From positions 25,930,455 through 25,994,454 of the forward strand of contig CAIIXF020000002.1 of the NCBI GenBank assembly GCA_903813345.2: 64,000 nucleotides of DNA. Direction: 5' to 3'. Below, one piece after another: positions 20,353-53,400 of this stretch; the first letter of the stretch is position 1, and each line of letters opens with the position of its first letter. The DNA is from Owenia fusiformis (lineage: Eukaryota > Annelida > Polychaeta > Sabellida > Oweniidae). Under the pieces are notes generated by a model. That model made no database searches and was not told the DNA's origin. It was given only the letters and a program-made list of their open reading frames with translations. The translations under genes and the position numbers were made by a program.

Positions 20353-21461
20353 TCACATGGTCATATCAAGCCCATTTTTCTTTTGTTCATAGTAGTACGC
20401 TGGATGATATTCACGACAGTGTTGACTAAATTGAAGAGACGTAATAGGCTCCTGACACATTGGGCAGTCCATCTTTTTGGGTGTAACATTCAAGTTCAAT
20501 GCCACTCCAACCACTTCATTATTTGGGGAGGGGCTCAGATCTGTTGCGGTTGATTGCATTTCTGTCGGATTATCTGGGTTCCATGTATGCTTTGCCAACT
20601 CATGATTTTGCAGGGCTTGTTTCTGCGTGAATGTCGCCTTACAGATTTCACATTCATACGGGCGTTTGCCAAAGTGAGCTCTGATATGTTTGTAGATATT
20701 TGTGGACCCCATGACCTTACCACAAATGCTACAAGTTGACTGTTGGCTGTTGATCTTTGTGAAATATTGATGTAGGTCAACCGTGTCTTCATAGTTTGGA
20801 GCTCTCACAACACCAGGACGGTCATATATTACCATGTCTCCCATGTCACGTTTAGGACGACCCCTTCCACGAACTGGCCCCGGAGCGGGAGACTGTTGTG
20901 AGAAGCCGATAAGGGAAGGAATTGGGAGTTGAGTTGGACTATCCTCTGCCCATGTCATCTTCCTAGGGCGACCTCTTCCACGTTTCATCCCATCTGGAGT
21001 CGTGCTTGGTTTAATGGGACCATCCTGGGAGTATTTCTTTGGACGTCCTCTTCCACGTTTAACTGGAGACTCTGTGATTTGGTTTTGGCTGGTTCCGACT
21101 TCACCATTGACTTGTGAAGCTTGTTGTTCTAATTTGGCTTCTTTATTGCCGTTGACCTCTGGTTTTGGCTGTTGATGGGGTTGACCTTGACCTTCCCCAC
21201 CAGATTCACACTTAGGACTTGGTAACACTTCAGCTGTGTTTTTATTTGGTTGTTCTGGTTTCATATGTTTGTCTATTTGGTGCTGTTCTAGATTGTCAAC
21301 TGACGCGAATGTCTCTTGGCACATCATACACTCGTATTGATCCTGATTGGCTGGAGCTCCACCTGGTGGTGCGTCACTGCTCCCATCAAGGGATTCTGGT
21401 TGGTTTATGCTGAGATTGCCATTACTTGAATTGTCTGGGAAGACTTCGCCATTTTGAGTAG
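20353..21461 (-). CDS. 3'-terminal exon encoding four C2H2 zinc fingers and three AT-hooks
   Basis: The exon opens after a 3' splice site (TTCCATTTTTCAG, AG at 21463-21462) in phase 1 and ends at its own stop. Over about 369 residues it encodes a C2H2 finger (about 45-66), a Gln/Pro-rich linker, three RGRGRP AT-hooks (about 135-143, 160-168, 198-205), two adjacent fingers (about 244-263 and 271-292) joined by an F-G-K-R-P-Y linker close to the classical TGEKPY form, and a fourth finger near the C-terminus (about 333-353). These are sequence-specific and minor-groove DNA-binding modules, so the product is a nuclear regulator. The frame seems to start Met-Met seven codons earlier, but that stretch is the intron's pyrimidine tract. 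Phase 1 matches the donors at 33576 and 39134, so I read this as the most distal of four alternative terminal exons of the 39.7-kb locus. Alternatively it is the last exon of an independent gene whose first exons I missed. Confidence 0.82.
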
Positions 21462-21463
21462 CT

Positions 21464-22204
21464 GAAAAATGGAACATCATTTAATTAATGGATTGAAAAT
21501 GATCAACATGTAAAATACAAGACAATAGCATGCAAAATAACACCACCTGCCATTTGTTACAGATGCACAACACCTGACGCCCAGCACCATCACAAAAAAT
21601 GGAGAGCATAAAAATACATCACCACTTTTGGTGGTGACATAGTCATGTAATAAATCCCTATTAGTCATTACAACCATGGAACAACTACCAAAATTAGATA
21701 ATCAAAACCAAAATATAATTCCATATATGAGGAAGTAAGAGTAAAAGTAAGAGTAAATCAAATCTAAATCTTCAAATTTTGAAATAAATTAGACAAAATG
21801 AGTGTAAAAACTTGGACACTAAGAACTTTCGATCACATTTAAAACACTATTAATGTTATAAAACTTCTGCCTAAAAATGTTTGGCACAATTGAAACTTCA
21901 TTCTACAAAGTTATATGGGTCTATGTTCAATGGCCATAATTTTATGGCCATTTTACAAAATACGATCCTAATGCCAAAACATACCAAAATCACCAAATAT
22001 GACCCCCCCCAGAATTTTACCTTTGGAGCTATTTCGAAAATAATGTGTAAACTAACAACCCTAAAAGCATCAGAGAGTTAAAACAAGAGATTAGAAGGAA
22101 AATTTAGCTATTATACAAAATATCTGTGAGCATGTAATCAGAAAACTTCACTGAAGCATTCAGGTTTGCCTCCAAAAACAAGTCTGGTATTTTGAGCAAG
22201 TTAA
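21464..22204. other. Intronic sequence; no gene recognised
   Basis: AT-rich sequence upstream of the zinc-finger exon acceptor. Short ORFs at 21477-21677 and 21881-22081 have no support. Confidence 0.4.
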
Positions 22205-22344
22205 TGCCTGGGTCACATTTGCTCCGATCCATCGGCCGGCGCCCAGCCGATTGAGTGTTTTGCTCAATATTGTATTCAATTTTGAACAAAATACTCAATC
22301 GGCTGGGCGCCGTCGTGAAAATCGGAGCAAATGTGACCAAGGCA
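22205..22344. mobile_element. Second 140-bp palindromic MITE copy, TAA target duplication
   Basis: TGCCTGGGTCACATTTGCTC at the left and GAGCAAATGTGACCAAGGCA at the right. TAA flanks both sides (22202-22204 and 22345-22347). The interior matches the copy at 2928-3067, with the same CAATCGGC..GGGCGCC arms. It lies in the presumed intron upstream of the zinc-finger exon. Confidence 0.88.
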
Positions 22345-23348
22345 TAAGATGGCTATAAAATCTTGACCATTTGGAAAAGACCTATGAAACTTGGTTGAAT
22401 GAAAGAACAAATTGGACAAGGTTCAATTCAGCCAAATATGGCTTCAAACCCATACTGGATGACAGAGTTATTAAGATTTGTTTGATTTAGCTTTTTTTGG
22501 CTCACCCTACAAGTACAGATTTGACAATAAATTGCTTGAGGTTGTTGCTATGAATATCTTTAATAATCTTTAATTACAAATTGTGCATCCATCTCAATTA
22601 TTAACATTATATTTTTCATGTTAGAGAAAAACAATTTATGATTCATGCTATAGTTGACCCAATAAATTAATATAAAATGTTCCATTGTTTTCAACAGTTT
22701 TCAATAACTTAACGTTTTATTATTTTTTACAGTTTTGAGATCAAAGTCTACTGTATGTATAACAGCACATTTCATATGTATAAATATATATCAGTTTGTT
22801 CAACATAAACCCTCAGATAATAGTGATCGAAATATCATGATATCAAATTATCTATTCTATAGTAGTATTCCATAATAGAATTTCAGAGCTGAATTCTGTA
22901 TATTATATCATCTAAGTGTACTTTGGACAGATATCTGGTTACGATAGTAAAATATTGTTTTGTAATTCTATGTTACTATGGAAGAGCATTGTTTCTTAGG
23001 GAACAATGTTTTCTGAGTTGCTAAAATGGAACATTGTATAGTTCTTTGCTGCTAAGATATGAAACAGTTTTTCAGTTCTGGTGTTGCTAGGAAAGCAATT
23101 CTTCAGTACTATGTTGCTATCAAAGAAGTTTTTCAGTACCAAATCGAATCGCTTTGATAGGTTTTGTCTTTGTTTTTTTGTTGCTATGGCGGCAAAATCT
23201 CTTCTCTTGTGGAACTCCTTGTTACTAAGAGGGACAACTGTGTTTTGCAATTCTCAAAGACTCTCCCAGCCTATGCGGAAGTTAAAAATTGGTCAGATAT
23301 GCTATAATGACTATTCAGTCTCTCAAATAGGTAACAGAGTGATAATTA

Positions 23349-23487
23349 AATGCTCAAATGGGTACAAGGTGATATGCTCAAATGGGTGCAAGGTGATATG
23401 CTCAAATGGGTGCAAGGTGATATGCTCAAATGGGTACAAGTTGATATTGTCAAATGGGTGCAAGGTGATATGCTCAAATGGGTGCAG
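23349..23487. repeat. 24-bp minisatellite, about 6 copies
   Basis: Unit TGCTCAAATGGGTGCAAGGTG plus ATA; the 24-bp length keeps any reading frame, producing an octapeptide repeat in the plus-strand ORF at 23081-23560. That ORF has no start context, homology or splice support and is not called as a gene. Confidence 0.9.
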
Positions 23488-24324
23488 TGCCATGATGGTC
23501 TTAAGCCATGAACATCATTTCATCCCTATGTTACTTAATAATATATATTTCAGAAACTGACTCACAAAGGGATTCCAATCTGATGAGAACATATCAATTT
23601 AATGCTACATCATTAATAACTTCACCCAAGAACCTGGCAATAGAGTGAATATTTATCTAACTAGTTTGCTTAAACGAAAAAATAAACATTTTCCTTCCAG
23701 AATATTGAGAGTGAATTTGGATCAGTTTTAAAAATGTAAAAGAAGAAAGGAATTTTGATATCCATGTGTATACACTATTATCCATGACAACGACCAACAA
23801 ACTATTTATGAATGAAATTTTGGGAGGAATATTACGGATACAGGTCATAAGAAAAATATGGATATTTTCAGTAAGGGTTAAGATAAATATAAAATAACAG
23901 AGTATAAAGGCCTGGTACATTGTGAGATTGGTTTTATATTTATTTTATCTATGTTCCCCACTCAAGTATTCTATATGAGGCCAATACAACTTTATATATG
24001 TTTATTTACAATGTATTATCCTTTGTAAGTCCCTTAATAAAACATATAACTATTCAAAATAGGCCATGTAGGCACATGATATATTTAGATATGAAGTGTA
24101 TTTATATCACTAGTGAATAACAACATATAAGAAACTTCTGGATGGTGAAAATCAATGTCTTAGTACAGACCTTAAGAGATAAAATATTGAGCCAGTTTTA
24201 TTGATATATAGCAGATATTATCTTAAGCTAGGAAATGAAATATTATATTTTCTACAGAGCTGTTCCACACTTCAATTTCGGAATTAATCAGCTCTTAGTA
24301 AAATAATAATGAATCTTTTATATA

Positions 24325-24497
24325 CAGTAAAACCTGTGAATATTGAACATTTTTGCCAAGAAAAAACTTTCAGTATCTGTAGGTGCTAACTCCATCAAAA
24401 AAGTAATTTATACAGAGAGTATTTGTGCAGAGAAAGAGTGTCCATTTAGAGACAGGGATTCACTAATGAGAGGTGTTCACTAAGGAAGGTTTTACTG
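24325..24497. mobile_element. 173-bp CAGTAAAACC MITE with TA duplication (reference copy)
   Basis: CAGTAAAACCTGTGAATATT at the left, AAGGTTTTACTG at the right, flanked by TA (24323-24324, 24498-24499). This is the cleanest family member here. Terminal sequence and TA site suggest the pogo/Tigger branch of Tc1/mariner. Confidence 0.82.
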
Positions 24498-24499
24498 TA

Positions 24500-27400
24500 T
24501 ATACATAAACTCAGTATAAATGGGGGTATTGATATGCTTACAATCTACACGTACTTTTGTATAACCCTAAAATACAATAGTTTCCATTTCACAGGCAACA
24601 CAGGTTTATGTTTATTAGCCTAAGTATGAGTCATATGTGTACAGTATATTTTATTTATAAAAATAATAAAGGAGCCTACACTGTAATAATCATGCAAATA
24701 AAAATGACCTGTGGTATTTAACTATGGGTGTTTTATACTCAAGCCTATATACACGATGATCATGGCCCAATATTAATTTTATACCAAATACATGAACAAA
24801 CACTCCATAGCCTTAAGTGTCCCTAGTTCAATATTTAATGCTGCTAAAATTAAAGGTTATAATGTATAAAGCAAAGTACTGTATGTAAATGAGGGTCGTC
24901 TAGCACTACTATATTACAACATTTTTAAAACTATCATTTGAATGATTTAAGCAATCAAAAAATCAATTTTGAAGTTAAATACAAAGTAGTGAACAATTTG
25001 AAACAAAGGTATCATACAATACGCTGTGTATAATTAAATTGTTGGCATTTAGAAATCATTTTCATATTTTTCTCTTTTTATTAATTTATGTTCAGAATCT
25101 TAAAAAAGAACGAAGCATATTTCGCTGACAGCTAATCAATTAATATACTTTATACCATGTAAATATACTTTCGTTATACATGCCCTTTTCGAGTTGTACG
25201 TACACAGGATGCATTTGACAGTGTATAAAATCTACATTAAATCTAGCTTATCAATAAAAAAAGTTAATTACTTTTTAATACAACACAAAATGTGTAGAAT
25301 ATAAAATGCATATTACATGTTTAGTGACATAATATGAAAATAATTTATATAATTGTATGAACAGGGAGATCAGGCATGACAATTTTCTGCTTAACTTCAC
25401 TAACAATGAAATATAAAGTTAGCATATCTGAATTAAGAATTAGAATGATTGCTACGCTGACTGTACATGTATATAATTTCACCCTCAACTGGCTTCAAAG
25501 CCTTAATTATAATGAAATATAGTGATTACTACCATTATCATAAAAACTAGAAATTGTGATCAAATTTCTTAACTGAACATAAAGGAAAATAAGCGAACAA
25601 ATAAAAATGTATAAATGCAAGCAATAAAAACACATAAAATTGCAGAGATCAATCTACCAGCATAAAAGAAAGAAATCATAAATTCTAAATGTATAAACTA
25701 ATTTGTATTATGAAATGTTGAATAAAGAACAGAAAGAGATATCTTAGTTATAAACAAAATACTTGATCATCTTAAAAGGATGTACAATTCTCATACACTT
25801 TTCAGTTCATATCTTAAACTTCAAATGAACAATTAAAGTACAGTGGTTGAACATTCGTTCTCTACACTCGTGAATATTATCTACTGATTGTATGTAATTT
25901 CAAATCAAACGTTATGTTAATTATACATAAAATCAATGTATTATATTTCAGTGAATTCAGCCGCATTGAATTTTGTTAAATGTCTATATATGGCATGACT
26001 TGACATATAATACTTTTTACACAACAGCTGTATTTTATCTGATCTCACGTCGAAATTCTAATTTTTCCCAATTGAAAAACAATTTAATTCAAAATGCAAA
26101 GGTGAACGAATATATTTATAACAGATGGTATTAGTTATAGTTATACTAACATCTAGTATGTACTTTCAGTTTTATTCAGTTGAATTAATCCTTCTATTAA
26201 ATCTTTAATAAACGTATCCAGAGTTTAAAAAAATGGTTACAGTGACACAACTACATGTTAAAAGAGGCTTATTTCCTATTATTTATTTTCAATATCTCTT
26301 ATTAAAAAAAGCATACCGAGTCAGAAATATCAAACTTTAATATAATATTGCAGTGTTAAGTCATTAACAGGAATCAACATAATTTTATGTAGAACTTCGC
26401 TTTTCTCAAAGTTCAGGTTAAGTTTATACTTAAAGCCAAAATATTTATATCTATAATATTATAACCAGGTTGCCCTGACATTGCTCTCAAAATTCTGTAG
26501 TTAATAAACAGCGTTAAACTAGTTATTCTCTGCAAGTAAACTATAATATGAATAATAGATCATTGCGCCTTATAGTCGTGTTTTATATAGAGTTCATAAG
26601 GCAGAGTCTATGTCATAAGAATCCTACAGTAAACAGAAAATGTAGAGGTGTTTTCCTCAATTTAGTGCAAAATTCTCATTTTAATAAGATGCCAATTTTT
26701 TATGCTATTTTCACGCGAAAATGAGTTTCGAGTCAGTGGTTTCAAATTCCCAAGAGGATGTAGAGCCCAGTAGTTTCAGTTTTGGGAGACCATTATGTGG
26801 AAATTATGTAGTCTACATGTATTGTCTTTTCACATGTCTACATCAATCATGGTACCTCCCGTATTTTCATCTTCTATCCCCCATTAATCCCCACAAGAGT
26901 AAGAATGGGGATGGGGGATTATATAACTCGTTTGGAAAGAACTCTCATATCACATCACATTGTCTCCAATTTTGGGGGAAGCGTCATAAGTATATGTTTT
27001 CAGGGGAAGTGTCAAGCTAGTTTATGCTATGTGTAAGTCTATAGACCCCCCTCTTTGAATAAATAAAAAATATTTAACTGGAAAGTTACACTGAGAATTT
27101 TTCTGCACTATAGTAGGCAAGTTGAGACTATATGTAGATAATTTCAGTTTGATAATATATGAATTATATCATTTGTACAGCTTTATATCTACAGCAGCTA
27201 GCTTTATATTCATAATTACGAAACACAGTTTGCAGTTCCATCCATGGCAATTTGCACATTTTGCTTTTATATATGTATTATACAATCAATAGTACATCTC
27301 TCAGGATATGAAACCTTATCAGTCGACATTATATTTTCTTGAATAAACTTCATGTCAATGAATACACATAGATTTAAGTACATGTATATTTTCTGACAGG

Positions 27401-27667
27401 TCATGTTATTCAACTTAGCTATCAAACATTTACAAGTTAACACTATGCTATATAACATTACACTACAATGTTTATTAATCTTATAGTATTATGTAATTAT
27501 ACTCATAACTTCACAAATCTTCATTCTTAATGCTTTACATACCATTATACTACTGTATATACATAATTGCATATTAAAACTATCATCTTTAAAACTGATG
27601 TTATATCTCATCAAACACGAAATTAAAAAATCAAAATATATATCGTCTGTATGTGGAAGGACTGGGT
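24500..27667. other. Intron-like AT-rich sequence; no gene recognised
   Basis: No exon, repeat array or RNA gene is seen. The 99-residue plus-strand ORF at 26721-27020 lacks any recognisable feature. The stretch lies between two proposed alternative terminal exons on the minus strand. Confidence 0.45.
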
Positions 27668-27673
27668 TTTATT
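27668..27673 (-). terminator. AATAAA poly(A) signal just after terminal exon C
   Basis: AATAAA on the minus strand, 13 bp beyond the TGA of exon C (27689-27687). The very short distance supports exon C being a true 3'-terminal exon. Confidence 0.6.
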
Positions 27674-27686
27674 ATTTGGAATTTAA

Positions 27687-28318
27687 TCATGTTTTCTGCA
27701 TTGCAAGACCCGACTGCCTAGCTTTGAGTATTTTCAATTTTTCTCTGTACCTCCTTTGTCTCATTCTTGCGTTACAACGCTGTCGTTCTAACTCCATTTC
27801 GTTACCAGGTAAATACAATTCCTCCCTTTTTTGTTGACGTGAACGCTTCTGGCGCTCACGCTCTCTCTTTCGGGTATTAGCATATCTCTCTGGATCCTCT
27901 CTTAACCTTTCTCTATATGCCCGTTGGCTCAAATGATCTCTGTGGTTCATGGAAACATTAGGAACTTCAACTTGATTCAAGTTATCTATTTTCACTGTAT
28001 CAATGAATCTATTGTTTTGCTCCTCCTTAATGCCTCCTTGTACAATATAACTTGGGACTATTTCAGCTGAAACTTGAAATTCACTCTTTGTGCTTCCTTC
28101 ACTTGGAGGTGGTTCATTATTATCAACGATTTCATATTTAATTGGAATATCTGATGTTGATTTTTTAACCCTTTGAGGGGTTGTCAATAAAAGTTTTGGA
28201 GCTACTCTTTCTATAGTTAACTCAGTGGGAATCCTACGTACGGTTAGTGGTTTCCTTTTAGATTTTGTTGCCATGGGCATTTTGGTTGTCGTAGTAACAT
28301 GCATTTTCACGGCATCAC
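27687..28318 (-). CDS. Alternative 3'-terminal exon C: basic PGNE-module protein
   Basis: Opens after acceptor ATGACTCTTCCAG (AG at 28320-28319) in phase 1 and ends with TGA; about 210 residues. The first half is basic and Pro/Thr-rich. The second half carries a module of about 65 residues: an A-Y-R-E-R-L-R-x-D-P-E-R-Y start, a long R/K/E/Q helix-like stretch, the motif L-P-G-N-E, then R-x-R-M-R-Q-R-R-Y-R-E-K-L-K. The same module occurs in exons A and B, so it is a real, conserved domain. I do not know a name for it. Its charge pattern suggests a nucleic-acid-binding helix bundle, by inference. The apparent Met-Phe-Met start upstream lies in the pyrimidine tract and is not used. Confidence 0.78.
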
Positions 28319-28585
28319 CTGGAAGAGTCATGAACATCTTTAGTCAAGTTATGACTATCAAATCTTAGTTATGACTATCAGTTTAGTCCAATACATTACT
28401 ATACGATCCTAAGACAAAGTTACAATTATCCAAATCAAGGAACGAAAACCTATGTTAAGTCCATTAAAATAAATGATGTTGAAAACGTGTTAGAGAATAT
28501 GCAACTTGCTTTAGATGCTTCACTGACTGATTTAACGTCTCATCATACATATCAAATTGTTATGGTCTCAATTTTGAGTCTATAT

Positions 28586-29472
28586 CTAGTTTGAGCCATC
28601 ATCTGACCATTGTTGTTCTACTTTAATAGTTGTTTCATTATTATCGTTCAATTCACCAGGCTCTATTTTGACTTCAGCACTTGTTTCATCATATTCTATT
28701 GTCTTATCAGTACTGTCAGTCTTTCTTTGTAGTTCGTCTTCAGAAGCAGATTTTTGAACATTTAAATGATCTTTTCTTGGTCTTCCTCTTTGTTTCTTGT
28801 CATTAGTTCGATTTCTTTGTCGAGATCTCTTTTGCCTCATCCTCATTTTGAATCTATGCTGAGCCAGAAGCTCCTCGTTGCCAGGTAATAATAATTTGTT
28901 TCTTTCTTGACGACGGCTTTCCTTCTTCCTCTGTCGTTCCTTCATACAATACTTCTCATACAATACTGGATCTGCACGCACTCTAGCCATATACTCCCTT
29001 GCCTTTTTAGCACCATCTGTTTTACTTTTAGCCTCTGTGTGTGTCTTAGGTTTATAATGCTGGGTGCTCAAGTTATCTCCAGCTGAATGTTGATTGCTAT
29101 TTGAATCATCTAAGGTATGCTCACCATACTCTTGTTTCACTGCTATTGCCTCAGATTGCACACATTCCTCACTATCATTTATGTCACACTCTGGTTCAGT
29201 ATTTTTCAGTTTAACCCTGGCTTTTTTAGATTTTCGTTTCCCTTTACCAATTTTTGTGGGAATCTCATTTTCAAATTCAGTCATTGTATCAGCAATTAGA
29301 AATGCTTGAGTTTTTGCTTTAGATATTGAGGCTGCAGTTCTTTTCCTCCTGGCCACTATGTTTGGTTTATTAGCAGATTTTGATTTCTTCCTTTTATGTA
29401 CCTTCCTTTTTCTTGTGTTTAATCCATAGGGTGTTGTTGCCATGGTGACGATGGTGCAGGTATTTCCATCTC
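28586..29472 (-). CDS. Alternative 3'-terminal exon B: basic PGNE-module protein
   Basis: Acceptor CTTGTCTGTTCCAG (AG at 29474-29473) opens the frame in phase 1; the exon runs about 295 codons to its stop. There is no ATG near the start of the frame, so it cannot be a stand-alone gene beginning here, which supports splicing from upstream. It encodes a Lys-rich, NLS-like N-terminal half (about residues 20-45), an acidic linker, the shared module (A-R-E-Y-M-A-R-V-R-A-D-P ... L-P-G-N-E-E-L-L-A-Q), an AT-hook-like R-G-R-P-R-K, and an acidic C-terminus rich in V-K-I-E-P / I-K-V-E-Q type motifs that resemble SUMOylation sites. Exon A is a clear paralogue from the first residues on (S-A-D/N, A-R-K/R-K-R-T-A-A), so the two arose by tandem exon duplication. 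Confidence 0.8.
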
Positions 29473-29580
29473 CTGGAACAGACAAGCAACATCTTCAGTC
29501 CTCTAGAATTATTGTAAGATTTGGAGAAAGACTGTCAATAAATGACCTTGGAAATGAACTGTACCAGTTTTCAATTGGTC

Positions 29581-30413
29581 TCAATACTGAGTGTTTGACC
29601 CTTCATCTGATTCCTGTTCTATTTTAATAGGAAACTCAGTTTCATCACAAGGTTCTGATTTAACTCCAGCATGAATATTCCTATCAAGTTCTGTTGATTC
29701 TTCATGTTCTCTCTTCAGTTCTTCATCATCAACAACTTTTTGTTTTTTAAACTGATCTTTTCTTGGTCTTCCCCTTTTCTTCTTGTTTATTCCTTTGGAG
29801 ATGTTTTCAGCTTGGCTTTTCTGTCTTTGTCTAATTTGTTTTAACTTCAATTTCAACCTATACTGCGCTAGCATCTCCTCATTGCCAGGTGATAACAATT
29901 TGTTTCTTAACTCTTGATAGCTCTTCCTTTTCCTCTGCTGATCTTTCAAACAATGTTCTTTGTATAAGTCAGGATCAGCACGGATTTTAGCCAAGCGCTC
30001 CTTTGATCTTGAACATCTTCTAGGTCTTTTCTGTATTTTTGCTTTATGACGCTGAGTGTTGAATATATATTCAGTTGCATAATTCAATTGGTGATGATCA
30101 TCTGAATCATTATGCTCTTGTTTTACTCTCATTTCTTCAGGTTGTGTTAGGTTTAAACTACCATTATTATCATAATCCGGATCCACCCGTCTCAGTTTTA
30201 CAATAGGTGTTTTAGCACATGGAGCTTCCAGTTCAACAAGTGCATCAGCACTTAAAATTGCTTGAGTTTTGGTGCTAGATTTAGCAGCTGCAGTCCTTTT
30301 CTTCCTAGCAACTTTAATTGATTCATCAGCAGATTTTGTTTTTGTTTTCCTTTGTAGTTTGTTTGATCTAACGCATGTTGTTACCATGGTTGTTGCTATG
30401 GAATTCCCATCTC
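29581..30413 (-). CDS. Alternative 3'-terminal exon A: basic PGNE-module protein
   Basis: Acceptor CTTGTCTGTTGCAG (AG at 30415-30414), phase 1, about 277 codons to the stop. Order of parts: Lys/Arg-rich N-terminus, acidic linker with V-K-Q-E, shared module (L-A-K-I-R-A-D-P-D-L-Y ... L-S-P-G-N-E-E-M-L-A-Q-Y), AT-hook-like K-K-R-G-R-P-R-K, acidic tail with V-K-S-E-P and I-K-I-E-Q. It is closest to exon B, whose acceptor follows only about 107 bp after this exon's stop. Like exon B it has no ATG at the frame start. Nuclear, DNA- or chromatin-binding role inferred from AT-hook and basic module. Confidence 0.8.
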
Positions 30414-30415
30414 CT

Positions 30416-33400
30416 GCAACAGACAAGTAACATCTTCAATCCTTTGTCTATAGTTACTGTTGTTAGGGTAACATCGTCTTTCCATTATCTTGCCATATAT
30501 GGTTGTTAAGGTGCAAATTCTATCCTACTTTAATGTTACTGTTGTTAAGGTAACATTGTCAAGTTTGTCATTGTTTAAGTTTGTCACCAATATCTGTAAC
30601 ATCTCTGATTTGTTCTTTTGTAATGTTAGGGTTAACATCGTCAATTTCTCACTTTGTGTGGCCATGATTGTTTTCAGGTGTCCCTTTTCCTTAATCCTAA
30701 AGATGATATTTGTGATTTCTTATATCCATATTGTTCTGCACCAGTACAGATACATATTATGAGTACACTTACATATACCTTCCTTTTTAGATTCATAAGA
30801 CTAAACATATACATGTAATTACATCAGTATTCAATTTACTATTTATCTACCATATTCTCTCTAATGAACCCACAGTAACAGTGAGCGCACATGTCACTTT
30901 TATGTCAAATATGGTCTCAAAAATATGTGAAGTTTAATGCACTATAGGTTTTGATTATTTACACAAGATTTTGAATGTAAACCTTGGTGAAAACAACTAA
31001 ATAGATTATAGGCGATTAAATTTCAATATGGAAACCACACTGTGCGCTCATTAGAGAGAATATGGTATTTTCAATTTTGGTAGAATTTATTTTAGCTGCT
31101 TTTTGTAATAAAATATATAGGCCTTATGGGATGGTCAAACTTTTGGCTTTCACTTTTAGGAATTAGTGCTGGAGGATTTCAATAAATGATTAAGATAATA
31201 CGAAGATTTAAACTTAGAATTGACGAATAAGATTTGTATTGGTTTTTAGTGTTGTATTCTGCTCATTTTATTCATGACTTTTACAAACTAGACAACAGCA
31301 ACGCCAAAGTGTAGCAAATCCCATCGAATAGCCATGGCTGGCATTTTTACAAACAACGTATATCGCAAAAATGGCCATCTTCTACCAATAGCTACAAAAG
31401 TGTCATTAGACAGTGTGCCATGCTTATAGTATTCACATACTAAATATGAACAAAATCGCTCCACTACTTTTCGAGTTATAGTAAAATATGTTAAAATGCG
31501 GTATTTGAGTTATTGCCCAGACGGACGTACGGACTGACAGAGGCGTTCCCTATATCCCTCCAAACTTCGTTCGATGGGATGATGAACAATTCAATAGATG
31601 TACATGATAAATTATATATTTCATCTATATGATCATGCAATTCAACCCTTAATATATAACAGTACATCTGATCACATCATGTCTGGAACTCATTCCATAT
31701 TAAGGTAAGCCATGCAGAATTAGAAAAATGGCTAATTTAGGTAGGCAGAGAAAAGTTAAATCTTACTTATGACATTTACATACAGGTTTATGTTTACCAT
31801 ATTGGCGATTTAACAGACAGAATTAAATCCTGTTCTAAGGTCTGATGTGAAAAAGTCATCCACCCTAGTGGGGACTGAACACACAACCCCTCTACTTCAT
31901 ATTTACTCAGATTGTTTGTACTAAATTTGCAAATTAAAATAAAAACCAAACTTTCAGTACTAAATTTCTTACATTGATCAGTACATCCAAAACCAAGTAT
32001 GCTATCATATATCCAGTGTCACGTAACTTTATAACACAATTTTTAAACATAGGAGGAAACTATACTAAATACATGGATTGTATTACAATAGAAAGAGAGA
32101 CTGACATAGTAAACTTGTGAGCATTTTGGTAGACAGGATATTCCCTTTAAAAAATATTTTGCACTTTTCCTGATAATGTGACAACAGTTATTTGTTTTGT
32201 TAAGGATTTGGGATTTTTTAGAGAACTACTAATATTGATTTCATATCATGTGACCATAAATAAGCCAATTAGCATCAAGGATACTTATGGGTGTATAATA
32301 AATCAAAAATATCTGATATAATCATTCACAGTACAATTTGATATGGAACACATGTTTTTACTTTGTAGAACTTAAACCATTTTTAAAATTCAATTTGAGT
32401 TTCATAATTTAATTTTTAACAAATATCTTAAATTGAGTAGTGTATTTATCGCTGACATTTTGGTATTTTTCTTATAACCCGAAGTGCACCAAACTAAAAA
32501 TTCCCAGGGATTTTGAATTTGGTGATCTTTTTTAATTTGCCAAGTTTAAACCCTCGCCAAATTAAAGACAAATACACAGTATTTCATTTAAAAATGACTG
32601 CTAAAATTTTGGCAAATTTGAAAAAAAAAGTTTTCGCTGAAATCCCTAGAATTCAGAATATATGACAGCAATACCTCATTTACATAAAAAAGCAGGTTGC
32701 CTGATAATTTAAGTGTTCTAGCATGTGTGTTCTTTGTCAGGCATGCAGACTGTCTGAAGGTAAGTGTCTAGTTCTGTGTTTGTTGTTTCAGTTAGAAATC
32801 TGACAAATCAAACAGGCACCAATATGGTGAAAATTACCTTAAACAATTAACGACCCCTGACCAAAAATGCAGACCATAAGTTTTAGGAAGTGAAATAAAC
32901 TTCAAATGAAAGAATAAAGGCTGTCAAAAATCATATAAGTACATGTATTGGGAAACAAATGATTGTTTATTTTATTTTATTTTACAAATTAAATCAACTG
33001 ATCCCCGACTTGGCAACACTATTGTTAAATTTTGTCAAATTGTAATTGGAAAAGTGAGTGAAATTAACGTTTATAAAATTTTATGGAAATATCAGTCACA
33101 TAAGCCAAAGATCCTAGAATTATACTTACACGCGGCACATTTTAATTTTGCATGAATTTCTAGATATCATATGCTGCATAATTCATTCAACAGTGCATAT
33201 TTTTTTGCATAATTTATACTTTTCTCTTTAGAATATTTCACCTGATGATTCACTGCTTCATGATCTTCATAACAGTTAAAGGTAAATAATGTAAATAACT
33301 TAAATTAACAAAATGTTTAAATCGCCCATACCAGAAATGCTGGTTCATATGGTGAGATAGGGTTGGTGACATCCCGAAATTCAAGAAGGCTTTTATTTAT

Positions 33401-33575
33401 TTGAACTTTGGATTTTTGCTATACATGGATGCATAATTTGCTCCCCCCCCCCGACATAATTTTGTGTTATTTTACATAATTCATTTTTTTACCGGCATAA
33501 TTCTAAAATCTATGATAACCTTGACTTTGGCCTGTTGTCTGAGCTGAATATTTACAAAGATATGACCATACATAC
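30416..33575. other. Intron of the alternative-exon locus; no further exon recognised
   Basis: Between the cassette exon donor and exon A acceptor. It contains imperfect GTTACTGTTGTTAAGGTAAC-like words at about 30450-30560, one dispersed repeat (31310-31590) and otherwise AT-rich DNA. Additional alternative exons without strong composition could be missed. Confidence 0.45.
31310..31590. repeat. Dispersed repeat with GAGTTATTG...CGGACGGAC-like core
   Basis: Contains GGTATTTGAGTTATTGCCCA, CAGACGGACGTACGGACTGA and TATCCCTCCAAACTTCGTTC followed by GATGGGATGATGAAC. A second diverged copy lies at about 38362-38450 (GTATTTGAGTTATTGCATAG ... CAAACTTCC ... GGTGGGATAATGAAC). Element type unknown. Confidence 0.6.
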
Positions 33576-33671
33576 CTTTTTCATGATTGCTTTCATTTGA
33601 CTCTTCTGTAAGATCTTTGGAAGACTGGGCGTCACTTTCTGCACCCATTTTATCAGCTGCTGTGGATTCAC
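33576..33671 (-). CDS. 96-bp phase-1/phase-1 cassette exon of the alternative-exon locus
   Basis: Acceptor CTCTAATTCTTCAG (AG at 33673-33672) and donor GAAAAAG|GTATGT (GT at 33575-33574). The 96 bp are 32 codons in phase 1-1, open, acidic and Ser/Glu-rich (G-E-S-T-A-A-D-K-M-G-A-E-S-D ... E-E-S-N-E-S-N-H-E-K). Inclusion or skipping keeps the frame with both the first coding exon and every terminal exon. Composition matches the acidic end of the first coding exon. Too short to be found by ORF length; supported by both splice sites and frame. Confidence 0.68.
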
Positions 33672-33676
33672 CTGAA

Positions 33677-34297
33677 GAATTAGAGAACCCATTGATAATT
33701 AGAGAGTGTATGGAGAATTAGAGAATACATGAAAAATTAGAGAATTCATGGAGAATTAGAGAACACATGGAGAATTAGAGTATATACAGAGAATTAGAGA
33801 ATGCATGGAGAATTAGAGAATTCATGGAGAATTAGAGAACACTTGGAGAATTAGAGTATACACAGAGAATTAGAGAATGTATGGAGAATTAGAGAATGCA
33901 TGGTGAATTAGAGAATTCATGGAAGAATTAGAGAACACATGGAAGAATTAGAGAACACATGGACAATTAGAGAATGCATGGAGAATTAGAGAGTGCATTG
34001 CGAATTAGAGAATTCATGGAGAATTAGAGAATACATGGTGAATTAGAGAATTCATGGAAGAATTAGAGAACACATGGAAGAATCAGAGAACACATTAAAG
34101 AATTAGAGAATGCATGGAGCATTAGAGAGTGCATAGTGAATTAGAGAATTCATGGAGAATTAGAGAAGACATGGTGAATAGAGAATTCATGGAGAATAAG
34201 AGAATACATGGAGAATTAGAGGATGCATGTAGAATTAGAGTATAAACAGAGAATTAGAGAATGCATGGAGAATAAGAGAATATACAGAGAATTAAAG
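33677..34297. repeat. About 19-bp minisatellite abutting the cassette-exon acceptor, about 32 irregular copies
   Basis: Unit GAGAATTAGAGAATACATG with many variants (GAATTC, GTATAT, GTGCAT). On the minus strand it reads CTCTAATTCTC and runs straight into the 3' splice site of the cassette exon, so the repeat itself forms the pyrimidine-rich tract. Confidence 0.93.
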
Positions 34298-34299
34298 AA

Positions 34300-36485
34300 T
34301 GATGTTCTATTTAAGAATATACATGTAATTCCAAATAGCTGGGAAAATGGCTGTCATTAGAAGAATTAATATCTCAAGGGTTTTTAAATGTTTAAAAATG
34401 GAAAGTGTAATTTTACAACAAGCCACAAACTCATTTGTATAACGATGAACTTAAACCTACACTGTAGATCAAATGAAGATGAAACATTTTTATGAATAAA
34501 TACATTTGTCTCGTGGATTTGGATATAATTATTGAAGACATATTTGCAAAAATATGTAAAAATGTCACGAAACCTTAACACAATTTATGAGTATATATAA
34601 AATTGCTACTAAATAATTACAACACCTTATCTATATTTTTATATTTTATGGTAAACATTCATACATTCATATATAGATAAATTGATTTAAGTTAATTTGA
34701 AACCATTATTAATTGTGTACAAGGCCGTTACATGATACATCCGATGTTTAATTATATCTAATGATTTAAACATTTCATCAGGGTATAATTATATGTATAA
34801 TATATGAGCATTGATAACATATCACAGCGTTTTACTGCTTCTTATTTTTGCTTATTAAATTTATATTAATCATTATGCTTGATTTATCAAACCAAATTAA
34901 TAATGATGCATCTATATGAAAATATAATTAAACACAGATTTGTGTATCTTAATTCATCTCAGAACAGACATGCTAATATTATACTGTAAAGGGAAAACAA
35001 ATCAATAATTTATAAATTTCCCTTTATCAATAACTTGGCAAATGTTACACATTTTGTTTAATTAATAAAAAGTTCATGCTGATTATTCAAAGTGCAAAAA
35101 ATAGAATTTCAAGTGAAACAAAGAACGACTAGAATTTGTTCAATTATGAGTTTGAAATGAATCTAAAATTTTTGAATTCAGATTCGCAACTACAAAAATG
35201 ACATCATCTATTATAAGGCTTTTGGGCATATCAAATCAATCTGTAAAGGGTGATCGTAGCTACACAGGATTTTAAATTAAAAAAAAAATTGTTGTTATTG
35301 TTACATCTGGATAATTGAGCATTTTCTGATGTTGCCCTTGAGGCTTCCTCACCAGACTATACATAGACACAGTTAAACTCAAAACCACAACTTATTGTAC
35401 AATTAACCTGGTATTTTTGAGTAAATTGGGCTCAAAATTCTCATTTGACTAACTTTTTCTGTTCAATGAATTAGTCTTGCATGTTGTCTCTACCCCCTCC
35501 CCCCTATATGTGAGAGTTTGTGTTGGGCCAGGGAATCACAGAGCCTTGACTCAAGACTATTCAGAAACTACAGTGGAGATTATTTTGAAATAATTAACTC
35601 CAGTGCAGTCCGGTGCATGGTTGCTAAAACAAGGAATTTCTTGAGGACATCATTTTATACTTCACAGTAAATTAATAATATAAATAAATTGTAACCAATA
35701 CTTTTCATTTCTATATCTATGATCATCATAACCCGTATAAAAATATGTTTTAATAATTCTATCATGCATGACTACCAGACTGTACTTTTACATATATACA
35801 AAATGGAACGAGCCAAAGAAAGGTGTTCGGATTAGCAGGTGTTCACATTTCAATTTTTGTAAATATAAATCAATTTGGAGAAAACATATCAGGAACCGAG
35901 AAAAAGTGTTCACATCGATAAGAGGTCTTCAGATATACAAGTTACACTGTATCAGTATATAAACTATATATATATAAGATCCCAATTTAACTGGTGGAAA
36001 ACCCTATAGTTAAATTGAAGACTAAAATATGGTATATAAAAAATTAAGAGCATCACTTAACTGTATATTTTACAAGCGGTATAGCAATAATGAAAATCAA
36101 ATATTAACCTTAGTAGACATGTATACACGTATTATCCTTAGGCAAATATGTTGTAGACCCAATTCACTATTTTTATAGCTTTTCAAATACTGGTTTATAT
36201 ATTTCCCCAAGTTTAAATACAGACCGCAATATATTGTGTATGTTTATCAAAATTTGTAATTTATTTCAATCGTAAAATATCGTAGCATATATCATTAACC
36301 ATCGTGCCACAGTTTTGAGAGTTTAATTATTCTTATTTGTATGTCTTACTCATTTTTCTATTATATAATACTAGCATAGACTACATGACTTTTGTTTCCC
36401 ATCTCCTCTTCTCCCCTTGTTAATTTTATTTCAAATAGAATTGAAATGTAGATCATTTATATATCATAAATAACTGATCACTTAC
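34300..36485. other. Intron-like sequence; no gene recognised
   Basis: AT-rich DNA. At about 35821-35952 lies a relic of the element that forms the 79-bp repeat at 13584 (AGCAGGTGTTCACATTTCA, then AAAAAGTGTTCACAT, ending near TACACTGTA). No exons seen. Confidence 0.4.
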
Positions 36486-37125
36486 ATGGGTTTCATTAGC
36501 AGCAGGCAACAGGTGATTTTCACCATTTGTTTTCACAAAATCGCCTGTTGTTTTTAGGGGCTTTTCAACTTTTCCATGTTATATTTACGATTTCCATTAA
36601 TTTTGCCTGTTGTTTTTATTTATTTAACCTGTTGTGAGAAATTCTATTGAAACATCCGACTTAATAAAGTGATTTCTTTCGAAACAATAAGATATTCCTT
36701 TTCATTATTTGTTATCCCAAATAAAACCTGAGGTCAAATCTGTTTATGTACGAGTACAATTATGATATTTTTCAAATGTGTAGGTATAATCTGGAGAATA
36801 TTGCCAGGCCTGTAGCTAGGGGGGGGGGGGGGGGTCGAACTTTTAAATAATCATATGCTAGCCTGAAACCTTGACCTTCGGTTTTGGTTTGTTGATATAT
36901 TTCACATACACAAAGCATCAAGCCTGGTGCTTATATCCTGAAGTAATGAACTCAGGGGTTTCACTAGAATTTCTCACAACAGGCTGAATAAATGAAAACA
37001 ACAGGCAAAATTCATGTAAATCAAAAATTTAACATGGAAAAGTTCCTAAAAACAACAGACATTTTGTGAAAACAACTGGTGAAAATGGCCTGTTGTATGC
37101 TGCTAATGAAACGCCTGGAATACAC
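36486..37125. mobile_element. Foldback repeat with about 165-bp inverted arms
   Basis: The left arm (36486-36652) begins GGGTTTCATTAGCAGCA and contains three CCTGTTGT words, GTTTTCACAAAAT and CTCACAACAGG-complement motifs. The right arm (36957-37125) is its inverse, ending TGCTGCTAATGAAACGCC. The roughly 300-bp spacer holds a G run at 36820-36833. Arms are about 80-85 percent alike by eye. No target duplication fixed. Confidence 0.75.
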
Positions 37126-37622
37126 TGATTTTTTACTGAAAAATTTCTGGATGTCAAATGATATCATCATTTGTGAGGACTAAGCAATATAACTTATTTG
37201 TGGCTGGTAATGGCCGATTAATATTCTTGATTTGATATACTACATGAACACTTATTCTAACATTTCAAACAGCTTATTAACAATTTCATAACACATCTGT
37301 TTATTTGTTATGAATTATAACCAGGAAATTACTCTGATAATAATGAAAGCATATAGGTTGAAAATAATAATGAATGTCAAATAAAAATGAATGTCAAATA
37401 AAAATGAATGTCTGCACATAAATATAATTTGCAGAAAATTGAAACTCGCATTGCTGAATATAATATTACTTTAGACTAGACTATATAATTTTATTTTTCC
37501 ATCAAGGCAAGGATAATTTCAAAACTGGATGCAAAATTTAAATCCCAAATTTATTTCTAAAATATCCAAACTCTAAAATCTTAATTTCATGATTTTAAGG
37601 TTTCTCTGAAACTGGGTGTGGG

Positions 37623-38143
37623 TGTTCACTGTATATAAAACTCGACGGGGATCCTAGGCTGAAGCCTCAAATATCAATATGTTCCCATACCAATCTGTCA
37701 AATTTCAATATGTTCCCATACCAACCAAAATAACGCCCAAAGGCCATACCAAATGTCCAAATATAGGACCAATGCCATACCAAATGCCCAATTATAGGAC
37801 CAATGCCATACCAAATGTCAAAATGTAGGACCAATGCCATACCAAATGTCCAAATATGGGACCAATGCCATACCTTAATTCAAAGTAAATGAAATATAGG
37901 ATCAATGTCATACAAATTTGGAACTACTGGACCAATGCCATACCACGAATGTTAGGTAACATCTACAACGACCATTCTCATGCCAGAAGAGCAAAAGTCC
38001 GACCATTGCCATACCTCAGAAGTCAGAAATTTCCAGGCATTCCCATACCAAATCCTAAAATATGGGTCCATTGCCATACCAAACGTTGAAAAATGTACCC
38101 CACATGCGCCGAGGATCCCCGTCAAGGTTTATATATAGTGAAC
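37623..38143. mobile_element. About 520-bp element with inverted ends and a tandem-repeat core
   Basis: Left end GTTCACTGTATATAAAACTC then GACGGGGATCCTAGG; the right end is the inverse (CGAGGATCCCCGTCAAGGTT TATATATAGTGAAC). Between them a roughly 31-bp unit (GCCATACCAAATGTCCAAAT plus ATAGGACCAAT) repeats about a dozen times. A short mobile element with a minisatellite core resembles the pearl-type elements of bivalves in outline, but those lack such inverted ends; I leave the class open. Confidence 0.72.
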
Positions 38144-39133
38144 CCCCCGGGGGTGTAAATGGATTTAAACTAGGTACAAATGAATTTTTAACTGAGACCA
38201 AATTGATAATCAACAATGCATAAATAAAATTTTAACTGTGTGCAGATGTATTTTCATATAGCAAAAAAAACTTAACTGTGTAATGAGATTTTCAACTGGG
38301 TACAAATAAACTTTAAACTGGGTGCTTAGCCTATAAAATCCTTTAACCAAATCTGTCAACTGGTATTTGAGTTATTGCATAGATACACAAACAAATAGAC
38401 GAATGGCTTCTCTATATCCCTACAAACTTCCTTTGGTGGGATAATGAACTTTTAACTGGGTGCAAATGGATTTTCAACTGGGTATTAAATATCAAAAACA
38501 AATGATATGTTGTTTTATTTCCATATTTGTTGACTATGTATTACACAAACTCATGTAAATAAAGAAATAAACAAAAGGATCTAATATTTCAAGAGATCAT
38601 GAATTTTTAATAAATTCAAATCTCTTATGTAAATATATGGATACTTTATTTACATTTGATATTTGATATATAATAATGCAGCTAATACAGGGGGTAGTTT
38701 GAGGAAGTAAGAAATTAAACATTTTAAACAAGGAATATATTGTATACTTAGTATTTGAAGTACAGAAATAACAATAGTTAATAAAACTGATTATTAAATA
38801 ACATGGCTGTAATCAACACTTGTTAAGATTAAAATAGATGCTATTATGAATAGATGATAGATGGAAATAAAGAGTATAATTTGTTATATTTCAAAATATG
38901 AAAATGAATTACTCAATACATTAATTGCATTGCATTCTACTTGTACATTAGTTTAAGAAATTTCATATCATATCCTATATGTGTGTAACATTAAAATATC
39001 TACATTTCTAATTTTTTCTAGATTTAAAAATATGAATATCTATTTGACAGGTTAGAATTGAAAAAACACCCCAGTATATCTGACCTTGACCTTACGATCT
39101 TGTGATTTATAAGATGAACTAAGGTATATTCAC
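38144..39133. other. Intron-like sequence; no gene recognised
   Basis: Begins with several diverged TTTTAACTGGGTGCAAATG-type phrases (38170-38490), which bracket the second copy of the GAGTTATTG repeat. The rest is AT-rich. Confidence 0.4.
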
Positions 39134-39737
39134 CTTCTGTACACTCCATGTGGAATCCAGGATGAGACTCGGAATCATCGGATACTTTTTCACGAACCCC
39201 CTGATCCTCTTTCTGCCCTAGCACATTGAATTCATGGTCCGATTCTACACCCATTGAGATAAATTCTGGCTGATTGGTGTCATCAGATCTGTTATTGCAC
39301 GATAGATCTAAACTTTGGTGTTGTTCGACTGAATCAGAAGATGACACTGGATGCTGGAGGGTATATGGATTATGAACAGCAGAGGGTGGGGGAATACATT
39401 GGGGGTTCTTTTGAGGGGGCAGGATTGCCTTGCGACGACCCCTGTGGAGTATAGGGAGAGGAACATCGATGGCACATGTGGACTGGATAGACGCGGCTGG
39501 GGAAGCCATTTTGGCCATTTGGCTATCTGTCTGCCAATATGGTGTACTGTCAACAGATCTAGGTTTTACGACTGTTCGATGCATTTTCACGATGATATCT
39601 TGTGCTGGTTCAGTTGGACTGATACAGATGATACCATCTATTTCAATGGCTGTGTTGAATGTGAGGCGTTTTGTACACAGAGACAGGATTGCATCCTGGA
39701 CCTCTTTGACAAATTCTGTATTCGTAGTCGATCCCAT
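39134..39737 (-). CDS. Shared first coding exon of the alternative-exon regulator locus
   Basis: The ATG at 39737-39735 is preceded by about 40 nt of 5' UTR that follows a 3' splice site (TTTTATATTTTTAG, AG at 39780-39779), so an untranslated exon lies further upstream. That UTR carries a three-codon upstream ORF (ATG-Leu-stop). The exon ends at GAAG|GTGAAT (GT at 39133-39132), phase 1. Its 201 codons encode an N-terminal block of about 60 residues (E-F-V-K-E-V-Q-D-A-I-L-S-L-C ... I-E-I-D-G-I-I-C-I) that looks like a folded alpha/beta domain, then a Pro-rich linker and an acidic tail. It is not a BTB domain and I do not know a family name. Reading past the donor gives 33 more codons of intron. 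The phase-1 donor fits the cassette exon and all four terminal exons, suggesting a common N-terminus that may mediate protein contacts. Confidence 0.72.
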
Positions 39738-39903
39738 CACAAACGTTCCACTTGTTAATCACAGCATCTAATATACAACTAAAAATATAAAAATAAATGG
39801 TTTTAGCCCGAGACTTAAAATATTTTGACAATGTGAACTGTGAAGACTAAATAGTGTAATTCACTAAAAAGTAACCAATTGCTATGTGATATCTGTCATG
39901 TAG

Positions 39904-50390: not shown

Positions 50391-50432
50391 GAATTGTTTC
50401 CAAAGACGAGCCAGAACTAGAGAATTTACAAG

Positions 50433-53400
50433 ATGGACAAGATGGAACTAGAGGCAGGTCTTCCTTATCCAAGAGATGGAGACGAGTCTGACATGGAGAA
50501 GACAGTGTTCCTGAAACCAGAGTCAGCTGAAGTGGAAAATCCTGGAGCTGAAGATGAAACTTTACCTGTGCAACAAGATGGAAAACCATTGTCTGATCAA
50601 CCAGAGGATCAACTTGGTGTAGGCGCCAGAGCTAAAGATCCGAAGCTGGATTCTGAAATGAGCATTTTTCCTGGCATACAAAGTACAGGCTACTGGACAG
50701 GAGGAGACTTAGATAATATGGGAACTCCGGCACATCCCATGATTCGAGATAGAAGGAATCCTCCCCCAAGACCACGTTTCCCATTGACATCAACTATCAT
50801 TAATCGGCCCTCAGACAAAGTTCAAGCAGCCGAAGAGATGAGACAAGAACTAACTATGATTGAGGGACAGCTCAAAGGGAAGATGTCTGTGTTAGGTGAC
50901 ATTGCGGATACACAACAGAAACAGTTGAATGCCATAACAACAACTCAGCAGATACAGACCAGTAGCATGTCCCAAATAGTGGAACACCTTGCGGAGAGCA
51001 AGAATATTCAACAAGGCAGTGAGCAACAGCATGAGAGGCGACTACAAGAGATTGCGGGAATACAAGATCGCTGCTTACAAGAGATGCAACATCGCATGGA
51101 ATCTTTCCAGAAGACTATTGGTGAGTCTATTGACAAGTTGCACTCTACTTTGACCGTTCCTCCAGTTCAGCAAGAAGTCGTTTCGAGGTCTTGGAACTAT
51201 GAAGATGTTGGTTGTCCTTCAGAGTTTGATGAGAAACCTAGGTCAGATTCTGCAGGAAAATCTCGACCGTTCAAATCACCTACGATGCCAATGAGTCAAA
51301 AACAAGATTTAGTAGACGAAGATATTCCAGAGTCCTTTCCTCCTCAAAGGAAGCGACCATGGGCTTTACGAAGACAAGACAGAGTCTATGTGCCATCTAA
51401 ACACCAAACAGACCACAGAGATCCCACTATGCTGTTTAATAAACCTGATGAAGTGTATCTTCCTAGAGGCTGGGACGCTAACGAGTTTAAGAGCCAAAGA
51501 GAAAGGGATGGACATCCACCTAGAAGCAGTGATCATACGGCACCATATTCTGATATAAGAACTAGATTTGAAGAAGATAATAAATTCTCGGGTTTTGATT
51601 CCCCGGAACCAAAGATTTCGAAAGATGATACTAATATACCTGGTGTTTCTACAGATTTCCTCAAGATGTTCAACAAGTTGTCCCAAGATGACAGGTCCAA
51701 GTCCAAGAGTCGAATTAAGCCTGACACTTTTAATGGAACCACTCCATGGCAAGAGTATCGAGCTTACTTCGAGATTTGCTGTAAAGCCAATAGATGGACG
51801 TCAGAGGAGAAGAACGAGTACCTGGCCACAAGTCTGCGAGGTCCAGCACAGCAGATTGTGTTAGAGTTGGAAGAGGGATACACCTATGAGCAGTTGATCC
51901 TGGCCTTGGAGAAGAGGTTCGGGCCTGGTGGCAAAGCAGAAATCTATGAGGCGGAACTTGTTGGTCGAATGAGGAAGCCCAAAGAATCACTTCAAACCTT
52001 GGGTCAAGACATCCGACGTCTTACGGCATTGGCCTACCCTGAAATGAGCAGATCATCTCAAGACCGCCTTGCCAGACGCAGCTTTGAACAAGCTATAGTA
52101 GAAGAGGACATACGCAGAGCAATCCACGCAAAAGAATGTACTACTCTGGATAAGGCAATAGAAATCGCTCTGAAGGAAGAGTCCTACTTAGAGTCCGAAC
52201 GGATTAGAAAAGGACAAAAGCCAAAATACAGTAGAATAAGTGCGTTGGAAGAAAAAGAGAGCGAGTTCAAGCAGATTACCCAACTGATAGAGAATATCCA
52301 GAAAAGCGTACAAGTGGAATGCAGCAAGAACTTAGAGAAAATGGTGGAGTTATTGGAACAACAGAAGAAGCCTGGGTTCGAATCGAAAGGAAACCGAAAT
52401 AGAAAAGTTGAGTGCTTTTACTGCCATAAAGTAGGACACGTGATGGCCGACTGTTATTCGAGGAAGCGAAATGAAGAGAGAGCCAGAGAGGCCCAAGCTG
52501 GATCGAATCAGACTGCCCCGGTGAAATTCCTGTCTCATTCAGGGAGAGATGTTACCAAGAACAAGTCCCCTAAGGATGTTCGGAAGGTTATAGCTCACGG
52601 CGATGTTTGTGGCACTGATGTGATCTTTTTGTTAGATTCTGGAGCAGTGCGTACCATTGTGAGTGGTGAAGTTTATCGTAGGATGAACCCTCGATATCGC
52701 CCAAAGTTGTTACCTCCAAACCATGTTATGGTCCAAGCAGATGGGGAACCACTGGCCATGATGGGAGTTATCTTTGGTACTGTTAATATAGATGGACATA
52801 CAGAAGAGATGGAGATTGCTGTAGCCAACATAGACTTTGATGGAATTTTGGGAAGCGACTATTTATCTGCATCTGGAGCTATAGTAGATTACCATCGCTG
52901 TCGACTTAGTTTTGGGGCACAAGATAACTCTGGTGCAACAGAAGATCAACTTGATGATCCTGAGGGACCTGAGTTAGACGAATCTGATCACTTCTGTAGC
53001 TGCAGTACTAAGTTATCAAGAAATGAAAGCAGTAGTAGCGGCTCAGCATTGGAGGTTGTTGGATCCATGCCCAGGACTACAAAGAGTTTAAAAGAATCAG
53101 CTGAAGCTGGACCAAGTTCAACACAAGTGAAGAGAATGGTAGAACCTAGACCTGAGACACCTTCACCTAGAGTCAAGATAGAAATTCCTGATAGTCCCCT
53201 GTCTGTAGTCGAGGAAGACACAGAGGAATCAGAAGATTCTCAAGTTTTTGAGGATGCCCGGGAACTATTTGTACCTGAAACTCCGTCGCCTGAACCAGAG
53301 GTACAGTTTCCTGACAGTCCCCCAGCGGAACCTATCGTTATTCCAGAAACGCCACATGGGTCTCAAGAGAGTTTGGACTTGGAAGATGATGTATTTCCCG

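Follow-up and report, generated by a model that had tools for sequence, protein, structure and literature searches.

The 64,000-nucleotide stretch of DNA analysed here (the window) covers positions 25,930,455-25,994,454 of contig C2, a chromosome-scale contig of 35.75 Mb in the 498-Mb genome of the annelid Owenia fusiformis. Its minus strand carries a gene that probably joins a common N-terminal exon, optionally followed by a cassette exon with phase 1 on either side, to one of several last exons, and that is one member of a family sharing the same N-terminal module. A deposited O. fusiformis product, P0001 (602 amino acids), is an exact letter match to the common exon, the cassette and the most distal last exon, Z. 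By analogy with the C2H2 zinc-finger exons found at sister loci, exons A, B and C, situated between the cassette and Z, are probably used as alternative last exons of the same gene. The features of the locus are as follows.

39134..39737, minus strand: common N-terminal coding exon (N exon), with its ATG at 39737 and a phase-1 donor at 39134
33576..33671, minus strand: cassette exon of 96 bp, phase 1 at both ends, in-frame and optional, contained in the deposited P0001
30414..30443, minus strand: acceptor region of A, largely identical to that of B
29581..30413, minus strand: putative terminal exon A, with a phase-1 acceptor, its own stop, a basic PGNE domain and an AT-hook-like motif below the Pfam cut-off
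29473..29502, minus strand: acceptor region of B, sharing conserved sequence with that of A
28586..29472, minus strand: putative terminal exon B, a paralogue of A with a phase-1 acceptor and its own stop, catalogued separately as P0004
27687..28318, minus strand: putative terminal exon C, a shorter PGNE paralogue with a phase-1 acceptor and its own stop
27471..27687, minus strand: poly(A) hexamers from the stop of C onward (ATTAAA at 27687, AATAAA at 27673 and 27476)
20353..21461, minus strand: terminal exon Z, with a phase-1 acceptor at 21461, C2H2 fingers and AT-hooks, joined to the N exon and cassette in P0001

The original prediction had placed phase-1 donors at the ends of the N exon and the 96-bp cassette and phase-1 acceptors at 30413, 29472, 28318 and 21461, each followed by a frame with its own stop. 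These coordinates proved right, and all eight possible joins, from the N exon or the N exon plus cassette to A, B, C or Z, remain in frame through to the stop. Counted from stop to stop, the frames of A, B, C and Z comprise 284, 302, 218 and 375 amino acids, respectively. In 500 Markov-resampled versions of the A-B-C region the longest sense frame did not exceed 138 amino acids, and the three open frames are therefore not a product of chance. The five acceptors of the locus score within the top 0.3-3.4% of 1132 AG dinucleotides and its two donors within the top 0.6-1.4% of 1090 GT dinucleotides. An acceptor-like AG is located directly upstream of 39778, suggesting that the gene has an additional 5′ exon. 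The acceptor of the cassette is adjoined by a tandem array with 19-bp spacing (33657-34346), which seems to be the source of its minus-strand pyrimidine-rich tract.

Exons A and B, which share 38.5% amino acid identity across 301 columns, are under selection as protein. Over 266 codons their dS is 0.74 and their dN 0.42, giving an omega (dN/dS) of 0.57 (bootstrap 0.40-0.81), while the corresponding ratio in the two shifted frames is about 1. The last 30 intron bases before the two exons are identical at 27 positions, compared with three of the next ten bases upstream and about 53% of synonymous sites (P = 1.6e-5), suggesting that both acceptors are kept by selection. Exon C can be aligned with A and B by BLAST around the PGNE core alone and is strongly diverged, and its comparisons with both (dS about 2) approach saturation and provide little information.

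The first 60 residues of the N exon constitute a module (N-module; family motif IQDAVLKLCTQ...LEIDGIICVS...VVKMHRT), while the remainder of the exon is modelled with low confidence. The same module recurs elsewhere in the O. fusiformis genome, the single annelid genome examined. A second product, P0002 (717 amino acids), has approximately its first 60 residues in common with the N exon and is labelled C2H2-type, with Pfam finger scores below the cut-offs; its gene model consists of an N exon, an internal exon with phase 1 at both ends and a zinc-finger terminal exon, every junction being in phase 1. A further product, P0003, from a contig of 35.5 kb, has the same start as the N-module (database E-value: 0.08; pairwise E-value: 7e-10) and finger-like stretches below the cut-off. 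A search of the genome with P0002, in which 62 of 100 candidates were scored, returned 48 rows. The rows for its four other exons were dropped, as was the N match on contig C483 (98%), apparently another copy or allele of the P0002 locus. The remaining 43 N-module matches are located on C2 (39), C7 (two), C1 (one) and C6 (one; locus L030, where the module was not confirmed but which is retained in the counts). As C2 represents 7.2% of the genome, the probability of 39/43 matches under an even spread is 2e-40, and the loci are dispersed over this contig from 0.39 to 35.4 Mb. The codon pattern E-I/V-D-G-I-I-C furthermore occurs at 41 sites (38 on C2 and one each on C1, C7 and C483), against three for the reversed control. 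Two such codon matches, EIDGIIC and EVDGIIC at G000:C2:33050705 and 33050945, are missing from the protein-search rows and lie 240 bp apart, possibly representing a two-module locus. Aligned over 26 sequences, including that of the window, the module reads MGSx..LTxxIQDAVLKLCTQxxxFxxSLEIDGIICVSPGxxxxDIVVKMHRTIxKP.

To survey the terminal exons of the family, stretches of 10 kb beginning with the N exon were read for 26 of the 43 loci (all sixteen plus-strand matches, the first eight minus-strand matches listed besides the window and the two weakest). These were picked irrespective of zinc fingers, with the window and sixteen others outside the sample. The N-module is present once in 25 of these 26 sister loci, with none seen in L030, and a second module was seen in none. 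All 30 open reading frames (ORFs) identified by a strict C2H2 pattern share the strand of the N exon, with no antisense ones, while a looser finger pattern, with the following stretch L035 (the 10 kb beyond L034) included, gave 39 sense against four antisense ORFs. The strict ORFs are distributed over seventeen loci, nine of which harbor at least two: four in L027, three in both L013 and L034 and two in each of six others. L035 has no antisense C2H2 ORF but adds three further sense ones, of which two are in phase 1, so that L034 and L035 together hold six, of which five are phase 1. A stop is present in 29 of the 30 strict ORFs, while the third frame of L013 extends past the end of the stretch. 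As such, a layout of several frames behind a single N exon is recurrent for C2H2 exons, which makes the use of A, B and C in the same manner likely.

The splice sites of these arrays follow the pattern of the window. Among the 28 C2H2 ORFs with an acceptor scoring at least 1.5, the best acceptor is in phase 1 in 26 (P = 7e-11 against one third), while the phases of the non-finger sense ORFs number 77, 70 and 63. With L035 included, 20 of 23 acceptors are in phase 1 at a threshold of 3, and 21 of 25 with the looser finger pattern. The exceptions comprise one ORF each in L012, L031 and L035, where the best site is in phase 0, and one ORF in L027 (at 6211) and one in L032 have no scoring acceptor. 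The best donor of the N exon is in phase 1 in 23 of 25 loci, and in 15 of the 16 scoring at least 3. Between the last finger and the stop, none of the 30 ORFs contains a donor scoring at least 3.4, where 3.8 would be expected from local density, while donors scoring at least 3 and at least 2 occur in two and five ORFs, respectively (the N donor of the window scores 3.8). The scarcity of donors after the fingers makes serial use of the C2H2 frames unlikely, though individual frames may be used in this way. In L034, a tandem pair of last exons, the sole pair tested, is under purifying selection (omega: 0.36; 0.24-0.57), with 36 of 40 acceptor positions identical, compared with 55 of the next 160 nt.

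Three kinds of terminal exon are observed behind the N-module, namely C2H2 exons, an exon in L029 (G000:C2:19412710-19422700, minus strand) in which a CUT domain (27.0 bits; cut-off 24.4) precedes C2H2 fingers, and the PGNE exons, which occur in the window only. The strict fingers mostly number one to three per exon, with six in L024. A 303-amino acid frame with a DUF3504 match (37.7 bits) is also located behind the N-module of L020 (3042-3950) and may belong to a mobile element instead of serving as a terminal exon.

The C2H2 fingers and AT-hooks of Z score above the Pfam cut-offs, while A and B have AT-hook-like motifs below them. The N-terminus had been predicted to be of a non-BTB type, and a Pfam scan of the N exon at E-values up to 1 bears this out, returning no family and no BTB, KRAB or ZAD match. 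The predicted model of the N-module consists of one helix and three short strands (predicted local distance difference test, pLDDT, of about 70-83 for residues 11-50), with a best Foldseek E-value of 1.9. As a guess drawn from BTB, ZAD and SCAN, it may serve as an interaction domain, for association or oligomerization. The PGNE core of the B model forms two long helices flanking the PGNE turn (pLDDT about 95). No solved-structure relatives were identified by PDB sequence search or Foldseek, and VIA-align had nothing to align, while a profile (A1) matching PDB zinc fingers was discarded, as the match was due to the finger part of the paralogues in the profile. Among the proteins of 166-528 amino acids in the collection, a PGNE search at E-values up to 1 found B itself (P0004) only. 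The PGNE domain may bind DNA.

Several observations weigh against the use of A, B and C as last exons of the N gene, or against the generality of such arrays. None of the scored candidates of 290-924 amino acids corresponds to an N+A, N+B or N+C protein, while P0004 (285 amino acids) is B translated from its own ATG and is catalogued as a stand-alone protein. The early ATGs of A, B and C share the favorable context ATGGYAACAA, which fits a translation start of their own. A search of the O. fusiformis genome found PGNE sequences in A, B and C only, so that the family backs zinc-finger last exons directly and PGNE ones by analogy. Within 10 kb of the N exon, 17 of the 26 sister loci have fewer than two zinc-finger frames, and separate exons may be fewer than the ORF counts indicate, given the overlapping frames of L016 and a nearly abutting pair among the four of L027. 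In nine of the 25 N exons, every donor scores below 3. The splice scores derive from generic matrices not trained on Owenia, and the phase-1 excess is gauged against one third and the non-finger ORFs rather than against zinc-finger exons outside the family. Alternative last exons are often incompletely annotated. The published Owenia annotation is described in its source as having RNA-seq support for 99.29% of transcripts (PMC9977687). A stand-alone A protein is not listed in the protein collection, where an A-B match would score 143 bits, but this absence is not leaned on here.

The original prediction had likened the locus to the Drosophila genes lola and mod(mdg4), arguing that two of the terminal exons have no start ATG and so cannot be stand-alone genes. 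This argument is wrong, since, read from their acceptors, exons A, B and C reach an in-frame ATG at codon 9, 10 and 5, respectively, and P0004 starts at that of B. Z alone lacks an ATG shortly after the acceptor, with two same-frame ATGs just before it. The likeness itself is supported by P0001 and by the nine sister loci with several frames, while for A, B and C, with no fused protein found, it is unproven.

The same ATGs and P0004, together with the missing fusion proteins, would be accounted for if A-B-C were a separate gene or polyadenylated unit nested in the intron between the cassette and Z, with its own promoter, a non-coding first exon and translation from one of the three conserved ATGs, the N gene then having Z only. 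We consider this unlikely. The intervals between acceptor and ATG (26, 29 and 14 nt in A, B and C) all hold one frame, and this frame fits the N exon in all three cases, which would occur once in 27 by chance were the intervals non-coding and independent. Several phase-1 last exons behind a single N exon in nine of the 26 sister loci likewise argue against a nested gene, as does the fact that no private first exon was identified, though no systematic search for one was made.

Joining in trans, either of terminal exons transcribed from their own promoters and attached to the N RNA, or through an A-B-C operon resolved by a spliced leader, appears very improbable. The principle of the former is established by mod(mdg4) (PMC4667647), and the tight packing of A, B and C, with acceptors close to their ATGs, would suit an operon. 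The variable exons of mod(mdg4) are, however, described as partly located on the opposite strand (PMC4667647), whereas all 30 strict zinc-finger ORFs, and 39 against four with the looser pattern, share the strand of the N exon. An annelid genome paper furthermore reports no putative spliced leaders and infers that there are no operons, "similar to other annelids" (PMC7854359). The one-strand layout and this report favor cis-splicing over trans-splicing of the mod(mdg4) type. Finally, disused relics of tandem duplication, which would accommodate the shorter, very diverged C and the restriction of PGNE to this locus, are barely credible in view of the omega values and conserved acceptors of both the A/B and the L034 pairs.

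Under the preferred reading, with A, B, C and Z as alternative last exons of the N gene, the pre-mRNA would begin upstream of 39778, and either the N exon or the cassette would provide a phase-1 donor for joining to one of several competing phase-1 acceptors. Choice of the A, B or C acceptor would lead to use of a proximal poly(A) site, probably near 27.47-27.67 kb, and to a protein with the basic PGNE domain, while if these exons were skipped the RNA would extend to Z and encode C2H2 fingers and AT-hooks. The resulting isoforms would have one interface in common and differ in their DNA-binding part. Joining of N to A, B and C in RNA, as well as cis-splicing and regulation of the choice, is inferred from the layout of the locus and its sisters.

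The distribution of poly(A) signals is relevant to how A, B and C would end. The 108-nt gap between A and B contains no poly(A) hexamer and the 267-nt gap between B and C only two weak ACTAAA hexamers, suggesting that an A-type mRNA may carry B, and perhaps also C, as an untranslated extension. A single mRNA containing several of these exons in series would therefore not by itself contradict the proposed choice. In the simplest picture, A-B-C would form a single composite last exon entered through any of three competing acceptors, with Z further downstream as the distal last exon. A, B and C would then have a poly(A) site in common, presumably one of those at or after the stop of C. Hexamers are also found inside B (ATTAAA at 29423, AATAAA at 29371 and another at 28627) and inside C (ATTAAA at 28142), so that transcripts using an upstream exon (A or B) may also end earlier.

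Additional repeats and mobile elements can be observed in the window. Upstream of exon A, the word GATGTTA occurs four times on the minus strand (30640-30428; at 30639, 30603, 30475 and 30434), the last copy lying inside the acceptor region of A. GATGTT as a regulatory motif common to the four terminal acceptors was dropped as post hoc, since only one of 25 family acceptors carries it. Words resembling "ccatagcaac" are, by eye, repeated around 23200-22960. On the plus strand, inspection by eye furthermore revealed a long gag-pol-like retroelement frame (50421-58460; 2679 amino acids from stop to stop) and two overlapping frames resembling a reverse transcriptase of the long interspersed nuclear element (LINE) type (43652-45116).

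It is quite possible, if still somewhat doubtful, that some 40 dispersed genes, mostly on one chromosome, alternatively splice one conserved non-BTB oligomerization module to arrays of last exons, which would number up to six or more and each bear a different small DNA-binding unit. Such a family would supply dozens, perhaps more than 100, factors with one interface, a spiralian counterpart to the insect BTB genes and vertebrate KRAB zinc-finger genes (KRAB-ZNFs), possibly directed against transposons or used for cell-type coding. Within the titles and abstract starts searched, with subscription papers and preprints not covered, no description of the N-module family, or of a family of this kind on such a scale, was found. 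The family makes testable both the growth of such arrays, of which the tandem last-exon duplication in L034 is an instance, and the purpose of a zinc-finger expansion on a single chromosome. How invertebrate DNA methyltransferases might be targeted to transposons is called unresolved in one source, which draws a contrast with tetrapod KRAB zinc fingers (PMC11292947). The N-module family is a candidate to be tested for a role in such targeting, and nothing more.

If the preferred reading holds, the strategy of alternative ends behind one module has evolved at least twice, here with an unrelated module and in about 40 annelid loci (39/43 on one chromosome). Among arthropods, a few BTB genes are documented to combine a single interaction module with many DNA-binding ends. 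In lola and mod(mdg4), BTB genes of the TTK type, one 5′ exon with an N-terminal module is joined to many alternative 3′ exons with different, mostly zinc-finger, modules. The common 5′ exon in Owenia is likewise compatible with several self-terminated 3′ exons (four in the window and at least two in 9/26 sister loci), and DNA-binding-type modules (C2H2, CUT plus C2H2) are found in the variable exons. The window gene would constitute a second, non-insect version of this strategy, alike in layout but not a member, as its N exon has no BTB match. The TTK motif is stated not to have been found in Annelida or Mollusca (PMC11426971). Furthermore, the exons of mod(mdg4) are described as mostly FLYWCH (PMC4667647), in contrast to the C2H2, CUT plus C2H2 or PGNE exons of Owenia. 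While those of mod(mdg4) occur on either strand, the strict zinc-finger frames are all on one strand in Owenia, where the layout is spread over some 40 dispersed loci.

Like the Owenia family, the KRAB-ZNF and ZAD-ZNF genes encode zinc fingers behind a shared N-terminal module and have expanded in particular lineages. They differ in that a single Owenia gene apparently gains further diversity through a choice of last exons, most of which have one to three strict fingers. The use of a proximal poly(A) site by an alternative last exon is a general mechanism, and A-C would compete with the distal Z in the same way. The window is set apart from ordinary cases by three duplicated, separately stopped coding segments that lie, with their three acceptors, within 2.8 kb.

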